Shown here: positions 52,058 to 60,176 of the stretch, piece by piece
How positions within the stretch are numbered: the first letter of the stretch is position 1
Layout: every line of letters begins with the position of its first letter
From: a virus
Reading direction: 5' to 3' (one strand)
Virus record (IMG/VR): IMGVR_UViG_3300043436_002761
Location: 1 to 60,283 of that record
Length of the DNA stretch: 60,283 nucleotides
Notes under the pieces: model-generated
What the model saw: the letters and a program-made list of their open reading frames with translations, nothing else
Told to the model about the DNA's origin: nothing
The model's database searches: none
Program-made: the position numbers and the translations under genes

Positions 52058-52270
52058 ATGACTGAAACAAAAGAAAAAGTATTAAAAATTGCAGATCGTT
52101 GTGACAGATGTGGTGCTCAAGCTTTCATACTTGCTACTGGAGTTTCAGGGGATTTAATGTTTTGTGGTCATCATTATCACAAATATGAATATGCAATTAC
52201 TCAATGGGCTTATAAGATTATTAATGAATTAGATACTATTAATGAAAAGTCTGCAAGTAGTCCTATTTAA
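52058..52270 (+). CDS. DUF7455-like actinobacterial zinc protein
   Basis: 70 residues on the plus strand inside the minus-strand fibre region. ADRCDRCGAQAFILATG then FCGHHYHKYE give CxxC and CxHH ligands, the signature I know from a small protein family of actinobacteria and their phages. Function unknown; the family is a host marker. AAGGAG lies six bases before the ATG and it has its own promoter. It converges with the collar fibre gene, overlapping by four bases. Confidence 0.8.
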   Translation: MTETKEKVLKIADRCDRCGAQAFILATGVSGDLMFCGHHYHKYEYAITQWAYKIINELDTINEKSASSPI

Positions 52271-56453: not shown

Positions 56454-57212
56454 CTACAATCTCTTTTGATGATCTTTAAACTTTTCTCCGAAGGCATGTA
56501 TTCCATTAAAATATCTTCTACCTGCAAGATGTGCTTTTTCTCTATCTTCATTTAATCTTTGACGACCAAATTCGTGGGAATCATTTCTTTCATTATTAAT
56601 AAGTTCTTCTGAAAAATATTTATTAGCAGCAAGTAATTCAAATTTATCTACAAAGTATCTTTGAATAGGAATAAAGGCAGCTAGGGCATCACCTTTTTTA
56701 ACTTTAACTACCCTGCCTGGATCTGTAAGCTTTAGATTAAAGGAAAAGTCTCTTCTCATTTGATCTGCCTCAATTACTGCTGTCATTGCAACCATTCCTG
56801 GAATAAACATATTTGGTGGCTGAATTGTCATTAGGTTTATGCCTATTGGGGTTTTTAACTGAAAGTTGTTTTGTATAGTTAGGACACCCTCAGCAAATCC
56901 TGGATGAATGTTTTGCATATTTAAGTTATCATCACTATATGTTTTTACTTCTATGTCTTTTGGATTTCCAGATGAACCATCCCAAGTTGCATCAAAGTCG
57001 TATGCTGCCTTTAGGATAAAACCGTATTGATTACCTATGTTAAGGGGTAGACAATAATAGGCATGGTTATTAAACCAGTCTCTTTTAATATTACCCTTTA
57101 AAGATTCTATAATTTCTGGATATCTTTCATACTGTTCATCTCTACCAGTAAAAGGAATAACTACAATTTTATTTCTAGGAACTTCAAATCCATAATCATT
57201 TATGTAATTCAA
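56454..57212 (-). CDS. DUF6065-like protein (paralog 1)
   Basis: 252 residues from a TTG at 57212 next to the oxygenase stop. Order of motifs: AYYCLPLNIGNQYGFILKA, FDATWDGSS, AVIEAD, FNLKLTDPGRVVKVKKGD, AAFIPIQR, then a polar helix. This is the family I recall as DUF6065. Coupling with the oxygenase suggests that both act on one substrate. Closest paralog by eye is 40322-41047. Confidence 0.65.
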   Translation of the reverse strand: MNYINDYGFEVPRNKIVVIPFTGRDEQYERYPEIIESLKGNIKRDWFNNHAYYCLPLNIGNQYGFILKAAYDFDATWDGSSGNPKDIEVKTYSDDNLNMQNIHPGFAEGVLTIQNNFQLKTPIGINLMTIQPPNMFIPGMVAMTAVIEADQMRRDFSFNLKLTDPGRVVKVKKGDALAAFIPIQRYFVDKFELLAANKYFSEELINNERNDSHEFGRQRLNEDREKAHLAGRRYFNGIHAFGEKFKDHQKRL

Positions 57213-57791
57213 TTACAGAGTCCAACCATCAAAGTATTGCTTATCCTTAGTCCAGAATGAAGCTAGGGTATATCTGATACCATCTTCTATTTTAGAGACT
57301 CCATGGAGGTGCTCTGGGTCTCCTGGGTGCACTGCAAGTTTTCCAGCAGCTGGGGCAATGTCAAAATTATAATTTGGATAATATGTATGTCCACCAGAGT
57401 AATCATCATTTAAATATATGATTGCTCCATAGTGTCTATGATTAAACCATTCTAATGATTCTTTATGATCTTCATGAGCATCTGTCATATCGTCACAATG
57501 TGGATGTTGTTCCATACCAGGAAACCATCTAACTACTTGGAATAAGTCTGGATATACCTCAGATAGGTTATACATATCCTTTATTTCTTTTTCCACTCTT
57601 TGACGAATTTTATATAGCATTCCCCCGATTTCTTTGCTATGTAAGTTGTATATGTTTATAGCATTAAGACTTCTATTATCCCAAAAGTCTGATCCGCCAG
57701 ATTCCCATGGCTCTATTGCCTTAACAAAATTAATAATAGTTTGTGATTCTTCTTTAGTTAAGAAATTATCTACTGTTTTTGCTTTAAACAT
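57213..57791 (-). CDS. 2-oxoglutarate/Fe(II) oxygenase (prolyl-4-hydroxylase type)
   Basis: 192 residues. Iron ligands H98 and D100 (PHCD) and H163 (EHLHGV), and 2-oxoglutarate-binding R173 (GIRYTL), give the full double-stranded beta-helix signature. It hydroxylates an unknown substrate, likely a peptide proline or a sugar. AAAGGA precedes the ATG. It is the first sizeable gene of the late operon, coupled to a DUF6065-like gene. The same window encodes a PF11397-type transferase, which in eukaryotes glycosylates hydroxyproline. Confidence 0.85.
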   Translation of the reverse strand: MFKAKTVDNFLTKEESQTIINFVKAIEPWESGGSDFWDNRSLNAINIYNLHSKEIGGMLYKIRQRVEKEIKDMYNLSEVYPDLFQVVRWFPGMEQHPHCDDMTDAHEDHKESLEWFNHRHYGAIIYLNDDYSGGHTYYPNYNFDIAPAAGKLAVHPGDPEHLHGVSKIEDGIRYTLASFWTKDKQYFDGWTL

Positions 57792-57978: not shown

Positions 57979-58007
57979 AGTATAAGAGTGTTTTTAATGC
58001 TTGTCAA
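57979..58007 (-). promoter_or_regulatory. sigma70-type promoter heading the late region
   Basis: TTGACA (58002-58007), 17 bases, TATACT (57979-57984), about 190 bases before the oxygenase and 80 before the small peptide. It lies after a terminator on the same strand, so it starts the long leftward late transcript. Confidence 0.8.
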
Positions 58008-58180: not shown

Positions 58181-58215
58181 AAAAATAGAAAAAGCTCACT
58201 TTTTTATTAGTGAGC
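58181..58215 (-). terminator. Rho-independent terminator of the small leftward operon
   Basis: Minus-strand GCTCACT pairs with AGTGAGC around an eight-base loop, then TTTTTCTATTTTT. Perfect stem and U-run, 19 bases after the stop at 58234. Confidence 0.9.
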
Positions 58216-58233
58216 CCATCCTATTAGATAATA

Positions 58234-58419
58234 CTAGATGAATTCGAATTCTGCAACCTCTTCACAGTTCAAACAATTGTCTAAATCTTCACAATAACAA
58301 CCGTGAAACTCTCCAGCACAATCTTGACAATAGAGAACACTCTTTGACTTTGAATTTCTAGAATTGAAAGCCTTTCCAATTCGATGTCCTTGATGTTCTA
58401 AAATTATAGAATTAATCAT
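58234..58419 (-). CDS. small cysteine-rich protein
   Basis: 61 residues. Cys pattern: CQDC, GCYC, CLNC, with acidic end EEVAEFEFI; N-terminus is basic. Probably binds zinc. Third gene of a leftward operon of tiny genes behind the damage-type promoter, ending at a perfect terminator. Not recognised. Confidence 0.6.
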   Translation of the reverse strand: MINSIILEHQGHRIGKAFNSRNSKSKSVLYCQDCAGEFHGCYCEDLDNCLNCEEVAEFEFI

Positions 58420-58422
58420 TTC

Positions 58423-58611
58423 TTACCCCTCTAACATTTCACAGATAACAGCACCTATGGCAGATGCTAAGCCAATAATAAAAGTAACTAGCATAACTGT
58501 TGGAGTCATCCAACTAAAGCCAATCACTAAAAGTTGTAGTTGTAGTAGTAGTGCAGGTAGTGAGAACACTGCAATGAATACTAATGGTGCAATTAGATTG
58601 TAAACAAACAT
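58423..58611 (-). CDS. small membrane protein
   Basis: 62 residues with two hydrophobic helices (about residues 5-28 and 36-57), short polar turn, no charge until the end. Might be an early host-membrane effector; nothing proves this. Its ATG directly follows the stop of the first gene (TAAATG). Confidence 0.6.
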   Translation of the reverse strand: MFVYNLIAPLVFIAVFSLPALLLQLQLLVIGFSWMTPTVMLVTFIIGLASAIGAVICEMLEG

Positions 58612-58737
58612 TTAGAATACCTCGTATTCGTCAGGCTCACAGATGATACAGTAACCGTTAGTTTCCCAATCGGTTAGTTTGTCACCACACTCTACACACT
58701 TTGTAGTAGTGATGTTCTCGTATGCTAGTTCAGTCAT
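58612..58737 (-). CDS. small zinc-ribbon protein
   Basis: 41 residues: CVEC at 14-17 and CIIC at 30-33, the two knuckles of a zinc ribbon. The ATG follows GAAAGGAAG. First gene behind the exact TTGTCAGTG-N8-TAAGTT promoter. Too short to name. Confidence 0.65.
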   Translation of the reverse strand: MTELAYENITTTKCVECGDKLTDWETNGYCIICEPDEYEVF

Positions 58738-58771
58738 TTTGTGACTTCCTTTCGTTTGTTTCTATGTTCTA

Positions 58772-58794
58772 AACTTAGCAGATACCACTGACAA
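58772..58794 (-). promoter_or_regulatory. DNA-damage (PafBC / RecA-NDp type) promoter, exact match
   Basis: TTGTCAGTG (58786-58794), eight bases, TAAGTT (58772-58777). This equals the known mycobacterial damage-promoter consensus TTGTCRGTG-N8-TAnnnT in every defined position. Drives the leftward three-gene operon. Confidence 0.8.
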
Positions 58795-58839
58795 AATCAA
58801 GCCAGAATCGCCTTTTTTAGGTTAACATTGGGTGAACAA

Positions 58840-58985
58840 TAATTCACAGGTTATCCACAGGATCCAGGCTGCGCCCCGTTTTCCACAGGTTATCCACACC
58901 CTGTTAAGAAGGTGTTAATGAGTCCCCATTTTCTGTGTATAAGTATGGTAGTTATGTGTATAAGTTGTTAATAAGATGTGTATAA
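58840..58985. other. putative replication origin: DnaA-box cluster
   Basis: Perfect TTATCCACA at 58851-58859 and 58890-58898; perfect TTATACACA on the minus strand at 58934-58942, 58955-58963 and 58977-58985; one-mismatch boxes at 58840-58848 and 58879-58887. They fill the noncoding 58738-59158 gap between divergent operons, the usual place of an origin. Confidence 0.75.
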
Positions 58986-59042
58986 CTAATGTGATGAGGG
59001 TCACAAAAATAATTCTAAAACACCCCCCAAAAAGGGGCAAAA

Positions 59043-59065
59043 CTGTCAGACCCCTCTGCTAAGAT
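59043..59065 (+). promoter_or_regulatory. damage-type promoter, rightward operon 1
   Basis: CTGTCAGAC (59043-59051), eight bases, TAAGAT (59060-59065), with TGC before the -10. Same layout as the exact site on the other strand; three of nine upstream positions differ from the consensus. Confidence 0.7.
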
Positions 59066-59086
59066 GAAATCATAAAGCAGTTGAGA

Positions 59087-59130
59087 GTGAGCCTAGCAAA
59101 TAATCCCGAAAGGGTGAGCCTAGCAAATAA
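59087..59130. repeat. direct repeat GTGAGCCTAGCAAATAA in an early leader
   Basis: Two identical 17-bp copies at 59087-59103 and 59114-59130, 27 bases apart, in the transcribed leader between promoter and the 49-residue gene. Purpose unknown. Confidence 0.6.
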
Positions 59131-59158
59131 ATCTCACACAAACGAAAGGTAAACCAAA

Positions 59159-59308
59159 ATGGCTTACACTAAAATAAAAAATGCAAGACTGCTAGTAGAT
59201 GCAGTCAATGGCTTAGAGTTAATACTCAAGCACGACCCAACCAATCAACGAATGATTGACTACTACAATCTACAAATAAAACTTTTGACTAGACGTGTCT
59301 ACCGTTAA
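59159..59308 (+). CDS. small basic protein
   Basis: 49 residues: AYTKIKNARLLVDAVNGLEL, then HDPTNQRMIDYYNLQI and a basic end. Helical throughout. GAAAGG lies about nine bases before ATG. Not recognised. The stop overlaps the start of the next promoter repeat. Confidence 0.6.
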   Translation: MAYTKIKNARLLVDAVNGLELILKHDPTNQRMIDYYNLQIKLLTRRVYR

Positions 59309-59310
59309 AA

Positions 59311-59333
59311 CTGTCAGACCTCTATGCTAAGAT
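59311..59333 (+). promoter_or_regulatory. damage-type promoter, rightward gene 2
   Basis: CTGTCAGAC (59311-59319), eight bases, TAAGAT (59328-59333). Second copy of the rightward promoter, followed by GAAAGAAAGG. Confidence 0.7.
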
Positions 59334-59365
59334 AAAACTAATAAACGAAAGAAAGGTAAGACAAA

Positions 59366-59575
59366 ATGACTTACACTGAAATAATGGAAGAGGTAGTTAC
59401 CCCAGCAGGTAACACTTTCTACAATACCATTCGCTACTATGACGAATGCGAGATTTGCCAATCTGCTATGGCTAAAGGTGAGATGCCTTTCATCTCTCAC
59501 GATAACTGCCTATACAAGGGTAAGCGTATCATTGGTCACTCACTAGGTCACTGTACCGCAGGGAGTTGCTACTAA
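59366..59575 (+). CDS. small zinc-binding protein
   Basis: 69 residues. CEIC at 28-31, with HDNC and a C-terminal HCTAGSCY, enough for a zinc site. Followed directly by another Cys-rich gene at TAATG, so the pair is coupled. Not recognised. Confidence 0.6.
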   Translation: MTYTEIMEEVVTPAGNTFYNTIRYYDECEICQSAMAKGEMPFISHDNCLYKGKRIIGHSLGHCTAGSCY

Positions 59576-59706
59576 TGAATAGATGCGAAAACTGTGATGA
59601 GTGGTCAGAGTGGAAATCCTGCCCTGCCTGTGATGAATCTATCTGTGGCTATTGTGTCTACTATGTAGAGCAAGACCTAACTAGTTGCGACAGATTAGGT
59701 CACTAA
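59575..59706 (+). CDS. small zinc-ribbon protein
   Basis: 43 residues: CENC, CPAC and CGYC, three Cys-x2-Cys knuckles in the first 30 residues. Start overlaps the previous stop. A third promoter copy begins just after its stop. Confidence 0.6.
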   Translation: MNRCENCDEWSEWKSCPACDESICGYCVYYVEQDLTSCDRLGH

Positions 59707-59709
59707 AAA

Positions 59710-59732
59710 CTGTCAGACCTCTCTGATAGTAT
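59710..59732 (+). promoter_or_regulatory. damage-type promoter, rightward operon 3
   Basis: CTGTCAGAC (59710-59718), eight bases, TAGTAT (59727-59732). Followed by an A-rich leader with CGAAAGG. Confidence 0.7.
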
Positions 59733-59767
59733 CAACTTAACAAACAAACAAACGAAAGGTGGTCACA

Positions 59768-59992
59768 ATGACTACACTAAACACCAAAGACTTTCTAGAG
59801 TCTTACAAGGCTTTGCACAATGCAAAGTATTCAACACTAAATGCAAATGAGCATCTTGTTCTTGCAACAATTCTAACCGTTTCTATTGAGTGGTCAAAGT
59901 CACTTGATGAGGTTCAGAAATTACTAGACAAGAAAACTCAAGAACAAAATCTTGAACTACAATTCTTCCAAAATGCAAAGGCAGGAAAATAA
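59768..59992 (+). CDS. small helical protein
   Basis: 74 residues from ATG 59768 (AAAGG upstream; GTG 59759 overlaps it). Helical with TLNANEHLVLATILTVSI and a Lys/Gln-rich C-terminal helix. Not recognised. First gene of the third rightward operon. Confidence 0.6.
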   Translation: MTTLNTKDFLESYKALHNAKYSTLNANEHLVLATILTVSIEWSKSLDEVQKLLDKKTQEQNLELQFFQNAKAGK

Positions 59993-59993
59993 A

Positions 59994-60176
59994 ATGATGA
60001 CACGCAAAGACTACATAGCAACTGCAAAGATTTTTAATTCTTATGCAGAAGCAGGACAAGACAACCTTTTGATTTCTTCACTTGTAAAAAGTATGGTAGA
60101 AGATTTTGCAGACTTATTCGCAAATGATAATCCAAACTTTGATGAGCAAAGATTTCTAGATGCGGTAGGTGTGTAA
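59994..60176 (+). CDS. small acidic protein
   Basis: 60 residues from ATG 59994 (or 59997) after AGGAAA. Begins MMTRKDYIATAKIFNSYAEA and is acidic after residue 35 (VEDFADLFANDNPNFDEQRF). Similar short proteins of the form TRKDYxxxA occur in many actinophages; role unknown. One base after the previous stop. Confidence 0.6.
   Translation: MMTRKDYIATAKIFNSYAEAGQDNLLISSLVKSMVEDFADLFANDNPNFDEQRFLDAVGV

Follow-up and report, generated by a model that had tools for sequence, protein, structure and literature searches.

The window, which is the whole 60,283-nt (60-kb) virus record from IMG/VR that we analysed, contains genes for portal, capsid, and ribonucleotide reductase proteins. Near its right end lie four similar sites that look like promoters, one facing left and three facing right. 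Which factor would bring RNA polymerase to these sites? They resemble the mycobacterial DNA-damage promoters that are activated by PafBC, and we propose that the PafBC of the host, which we assume to be present, reads them.

Four sites of one form

The four sites are present where the initial annotation placed them:

58772–58793, minus strand: leftward promoter P_L, TTGTCAGTG-N8-TAAGTT with the extended −10 TGC; predicted start near 58765
59044–59065, plus strand: rightward promoter P_R1, CTGTCAGACCCCTCTGCTAAGAT, which fits the family logo (see below); predicted start near 59072
59312–59333, plus strand: rightward promoter P_R2, CTGTCAGACCTCTATGCTAAGAT, which fits the family logo; predicted start near 59340
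59711–59732, plus strand: rightward promoter P_R3, CTGTCAGACCTCTCTGATAGTAT, which fits the family logo; predicted start near 59739

On the minus strand, positions 58793–58772 read TGTCAGTGGTATCTGCTAAGTT. Because a T precedes these letters, TTGTCAGTG-N8-TAAGTT agrees at every defined position with the mycobacterial consensus tTGTCRgtg-8nt-TannnT (quoted in PMC5656591), as had been claimed for the leftward copy. The rightward sites share the reading TGTCAGACC[C/T]CT[A/C]TG[C/A]TA[AG][GT]AT. All three are exact matches that keep TGTCAG, the spacer, and TAnnnT, again as first described, and they depart from the consensus at weakly conserved positions only (the first t is c, and the last t and g are replaced by a and c). 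Two features had been missed: all four sites have an extended −10 (TGn), and the rightward sites share a longer conserved core, CTGTCAGACCYCTnTGnTAnnAT.

The window has four exact matches to TGTCAGN7TGNTANNNT, versus 0.12 expected, and none of 100 dinucleotide shuffles reached four. So the density differs from that of shuffled sequence, which is the comparison that the initial annotation had called for. All four matches lie at 58.8–59.7 kb, with none elsewhere in the window. If the looser mycobacterial pattern is used and one mismatch is allowed, then the window has 9 matches versus 9.6 expected, which is the chance level; the signal in the window is therefore the four exact sites.

Genes and other elements around the sites

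Each rightward site stands before one or two small open reading frames (ORFs), and P_L stands before a small operon:

58234–58737, minus strand: small-gene operon under P_L (ORFs at 58612–58737, 58423–58611, and 58234–58419)
58192–58217, minus strand: intrinsic terminator that ends this operon (fold of −18.1 kcal/mol, z = −6.2)
57979–58007, minus strand: canonical-type sigma promoter for the next leftward genes, TTGACA-17-TATACT (11/12 consensus), a contrast that lies outside the set
58851–58985, no strand assigned: five sites that resemble DnaA boxes, between the divergent promoters (TTATCCACA twice and TTATACACA three times)
59159–59308, plus strand: small ORF (49 amino acids) under P_R1
59366–59706, plus strand: small ORFs under P_R2 (59366–59575, 69 amino acids; 59575–59706, 43 amino acids and Cys-rich)
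59768–60176, plus strand: small ORFs under P_R3 (59768–59992, and the next ORF, to 60176)

A Pfam search gave no match for the small ORFs of the leftward operon. From the position of the promoters and the type of genes, we infer that they act early. The DnaA-box cluster is a possible replication origin; a related phage locus (L003) has six DnaA boxes near the orthologous gene, and some other relatives have such boxes too. The initial annotation's view that all early promoters seen here are of one kind needs correcting, as the site at 58007–57979 looks canonical and adjoins the set, although matches to the canonical consensus are not above shuffle numbers in this AT-rich stretch.

Farther left, positions 56454–57791 (minus strand) encode a 2OG-Fe(II) oxygenase and then a DUF6065 protein.

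The element is widespread in related phages

Some 60 related phage contigs contain the same element, 2–26 times each; the copies almost always share a strand and a block of small genes, and controls with the reversed pattern are near zero. We collected relatives with two baits. The first, a strict pattern of the rightward form, gave 42 stretches in IMG/VR; their whole records have 1–26 sites each, mostly on one strand, and the reversed pattern had no match in virus records of this set. The second bait, which combined the mycobacterial consensus with TGn, gave at least 120 stretches. Three or more sites were present in 40 of the 84 loci examined, among the matches listed.

The gap between the box and the −10 is fixed. 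At the loci from the second bait, TGTCRGTG-N8-TANNNT occurs in at least 125 further cases that were not baits, versus 0–2 cases at gaps of 4–7, 9, 11, and 12. There are smaller side peaks among the matches listed (36 at gap 3, 8 at gap 10, 20 at gap 13, and 12 at gap 14), and we attribute those at gaps 3 and 14 to TA steps that adjoin the −10. When the TG was not required, four near-complete relatives had 15, 18, 8, and 16 sites, versus 1–3 for the controls. That the element is real and widespread is virtually beyond doubt.

Two relatives have dense arrays: 27 such promoters in 8.7 kb (G002:26422–35137, locus L116) and 22 at G031:180–5130 (locus L105). In each of these two genomes, an ATG follows the −10 of 10 sites at a distance of exactly 6 nt, which predicts leaderless mRNAs.

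Anatomy of the element

Roughly 670–700 distinct sites show one fixed gap and no consistent −35, and relative to the predicted start their box lies at −26. The logo from 333 sites is AAAA-w-TGTCAGACC-YYT-n-TG-n-TA-nRn-T, followed by six bases and then a conserved A that is preceded by a pyrimidine. This A is presumably the transcription start (+1). Since TGTC begins 28 bases before the predicted +1, the hexamer would be centered near −26. A −35 with at least 4/6 matches at 17 bp is found in 18% of sites, versus 12.5% after shuffling columns, so there is no general −35. Nor do the sites in general have the TTGACA-like hexamer 16–18 bp before the −10 that marks canonical sigma-A promoters. Instead, TGTCRG or TGTCAC stands exactly 10 nt before TANNNT, and the logo and the −35 scan predict a box near −26 without a required −35. 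We consider it very probable that these sites are promoters.

At the working gap, the dinucleotide after TGTC is AG in 615 cases (control 1.4), GG in 36 (0.6), or AC in 17 (0.3); the next best is TG, with 9 cases versus 1.0. The counts for AG and TG are raised by the baits, while those for GG and AC are free of bait selection.

The GTGG and GACC forms of the box belong to one promoter class. TGTCAGTGG, TGTCGGTGG, TGTCAGACC, and TGTCAGTCC alternate inside single genomes, and the forms also swap at orthologous promoters. Upstream of the gene for the MAHNLE.. protein, which we take to be DUF932, three loci with near-identical flanks have TGTCAGTGCCCTATGTTATACT (L146), TGTCAGACCCCTATGTTATACT (L190), and TGTCAGTCCACTATGTTATACT (L165). 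Similarly, the promoter of the leftward gene has TGTCAGTGG in the window, TGTCGGTGG in one relative (G033, locus L050; G instead of A at the R position), and TGTCAGACC in others. The rightward sites are therefore of the same class as the leftward site.

Who reads the box?

PafBC is the established regulator of the RecA-NDp motif, which is said to extend beyond mycobacteria to other Actinobacteria (PMC8223512). Single-stranded DNA (ssDNA) activates it, and it reads a motif at −26 and cooperates with SigA through sigma adaptation (PMC11804915). In Mycobacterium tuberculosis, the motif is TGTCGG, TGTCAG, or TGTCAC, then N10 and TA-N3-T (PMC8151990). We favor host PafBC mainly because AG, GG, and AC after TGTC are the three published M. 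tuberculosis variants. As a description of the sequence, the PafBC-type assignment of the initial annotation is strongly supported (core, gap, −26 position, no consistent −35, and allowed variants); PafBC as the recognizer is a prediction. We put the probability that host PafBC, with housekeeping RNA polymerase, reads these promoters at about 0.68.

WhiB is encoded in 22 of 57 records scanned (9/23 and 13/34; the incomplete window lacks it), and the window encodes a DUF7455 protein, a family whose occurrences in cultured records were in actinophages. Together, WhiB and DUF7455 point to actinobacterial hosts. The DUF7455 protein is zinc-ribbon-like and widespread in actinophages; its gene (52058–52270, plus strand) is on the opposite strand from the leftward genes that surround it.

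The four sites would be promoters for host RNA polymerase with its housekeeping sigma factor, having a good −10 and extended −10, and with the PafBC-motif box at about −26 in place of a −35. After DNA entry, ssDNA would activate host PafBC. Positioned between the box and domain 4 of sigma (sigma adaptation), PafBC would then start transcription of the small-gene units, leftward and rightward, that flank the presumed origin.

Several observations count against PafBC. Many phage sites have GACC instead of GTG after TGTCA, and the extended −10 is far more regular than the PafBC consensus demands. The exact phage form, searched as a narrow pattern (TAAGAT only) in 257 Gb of bacterial and archaeal genomes, has 10 matches in unrelated taxa; we estimate that this is near or below chance, so it gives no link to a host. 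None of 23 actinophage records outside the group uses the motif, and some of these phages infect M. smegmatis, which is known to have PafBC. Specifically, eight cultured Streptomyces or Rhodococcus phages that have the family's small helix-turn-helix (HTH) protein had 0–4 sites, similar to the controls; and in 15 other actinophage records, the motif was near the control level. BLAST of the motif against cultured phages gave no match. Finally, PafBC needs its ssDNA ligand (PMC11804915), which is not obviously there at the very start of infection.

We also considered that the phages might encode their own activator. A MotA-like protein could bind the box and replace the −35 contacts (sigma appropriation), in which case the likeness to PafBC would be due to convergence or chance. 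The MotA layout is similar, with a box at −30 that is 12 ± 1 bp from the −10 and with TGn in about half of promoters (PMC2988021). The motif-bearing phages in our comparison have a single core gene set in common, which would allow for a factor specific to the lineage, and in the window's clade the box (ACC) varies less than a host regulon would require. A 48-amino-acid HTH protein is encoded in all seven of the near-complete motif-bearing genomes that we checked. But the same protein is found in NootNoot, a Streptomyces relative whose promoters we read as TTGnCn/TAGACT, and in roughly another 100 records, most of them from Streptomyces phages. Because it is family-wide and also occurs without the motif, it is a weak candidate for the activator. 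Furthermore, the motif-bearing records searched yielded neither a sigma region 2 nor a WYL protein, and it would take a large coincidence to converge on TGTC plus AG, GG, or AC with exactly N10 before TANNNT. We consider a phage activator to be unlikely.

The searches for phage regulators bear on two other candidates. We rejected a phage-encoded PafBC because our search for WYL proteins, which covered the window and other virus records with the motif (many are fragments), found none. We rejected a phage sigma factor because 16 motif-bearing records had no region 2, and the weak matches that resemble region 4 are to the 48-amino-acid HTH protein, which also occurs in Streptomyces phages that lack the motif. 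Several conserved small proteins that we checked matched no DNA-binding family, and most of the small proteins are unannotated.

A quite improbable alternative is that these are ordinary extended −10 promoters of the housekeeping sigma factor, with TGTCAG as a spacer preference or as the operator of a phage repressor. TGn-TAnnnT is strong, conserved A-rich bases lie just upstream, and the weak −35 at 17 bp in 18% of sites includes TTGATT at the leftward site. In several relatives, an inverted repeat (GGGGTCTG..CAGACCCC) spans the box. However, the repeat is limited to a few sites. The box has a direction and keeps a constant register to the −10. And among sites that were matched solely downstream of TGTC, 554 of 611 have TGTC (partly a bait effect), which is far above a spacer preference. 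Least probable, with only a slight chance, is another host regulator with PafBC-like specificity: actinobacteria have around five WYL proteins each (PMC6789036), and PMC5656591 cites a report that ClgR recognizes the P1 motif in M. smegmatis, but the regulator established for the motif is PafBC (PMC8223512).

Repeats of the GGGGTCTG..CAGACCCC type overlap the −26 box in one type of promoter (L005:7650–7700, L010, L020, L024, and L042) and may be an extra operator.

A conserved leader RNA and a conserved protein

A conserved leader RNA lies just downstream of P_R1:

59080–59142 (approximate limits), plus strand: leader RNA with two identical TGAGCCTAGCAAATAA strands

It is also present at L003, L005, L006, L009, L011, L015, L149, L169, L217, and other loci. 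In most of 22 distinct copies, it lies 23–34 nt past the −10 of a TGTCAG-type promoter, and there is usually one TGAGCCTAGCAAATAA pair per phage. The invariant TGAGCCTAGCAAATAA strands face each other, and the inner hairpin varies in sequence. The outer stem covaries: all 7 pairs have two-sided changes, and none of 500 shuffles reached the covariation score. The RNA has no match in Rfam.

Another phage protein is conserved across the family (G004:99326–99889, locus L104; G005:3580–4098, L110; G002:40292–40807, L117; G072:75922–76479, L280). The G005 copy matches a proteasome-subunit family in Pfam, barely above the cut-off.

What PafBC control would mean

A large group of uncultured aquatic actinobacterial phages, in which most of the small genes sit behind promoters of this form, probably relies on a DNA-damage activator of the host to express its takeover genes. 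Our literature search, which was incomplete in coverage, turned up no paper on phages with PafBC promoters. It is possible, though somewhat doubtful, that in infected cells expression is linked to DNA damage or to ssDNA. More tentatively, and on balance unlikely, a radiation of aquatic actinophages may have put its takeover genes under the ssDNA sensor of the host. Incoming, replicating, or degraded DNA would be the ligand, up to 26 promoters would be switched on at once, replication would feed back via more ssDNA, and the array would draw PafBC-bound polymerase off host repair genes.

Control by PafBC would explain gene regulation in a common group of aquatic actinobacterial phages, and would be a case of phages exploiting a DNA-damage activator of bacteria. 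It would also make hundreds of PafBC promoters from nature available for the study of sigma adaptation. The proposal is directly testable in the published in vitro system from M. smegmatis.

Comparison with known systems

The Stanwilliamsviridae that infect Streptomyces (NootNoot and kin) have related capsid, portal, ribonucleotide reductase, and replication genes, and small genes with their own promoters. The major capsid protein of the window is 40% identical to those of Streptomyces phages of this family. But those promoters are TTGnCn-N17/18-TAGACT, and the TGTCRG motif is at chance there. The middle promoters of phage T4 are also similar, in that the host −10 (often with TGn) is kept and an activator box near −30 replaces the −35 at many promoters. 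However, the T4 box has a different sequence, and T4 encodes MotA and AsiA, whereas we found no activator that is specific to the motif-bearing phages. The sites also resemble the RecA-NDp/P1 promoters of the mycobacterial PafBC regulon, which share TGTC[A/G]G or TGTCAC, N10, TANNNT, and a directional box at −26, with no consistent −35. Unlike those promoters, the sites described here are in phage genomes, with many per genome and mostly with an extended −10; their dependence on PafBC is putative; and in the window's own clade, TGTCAGACC dominates.
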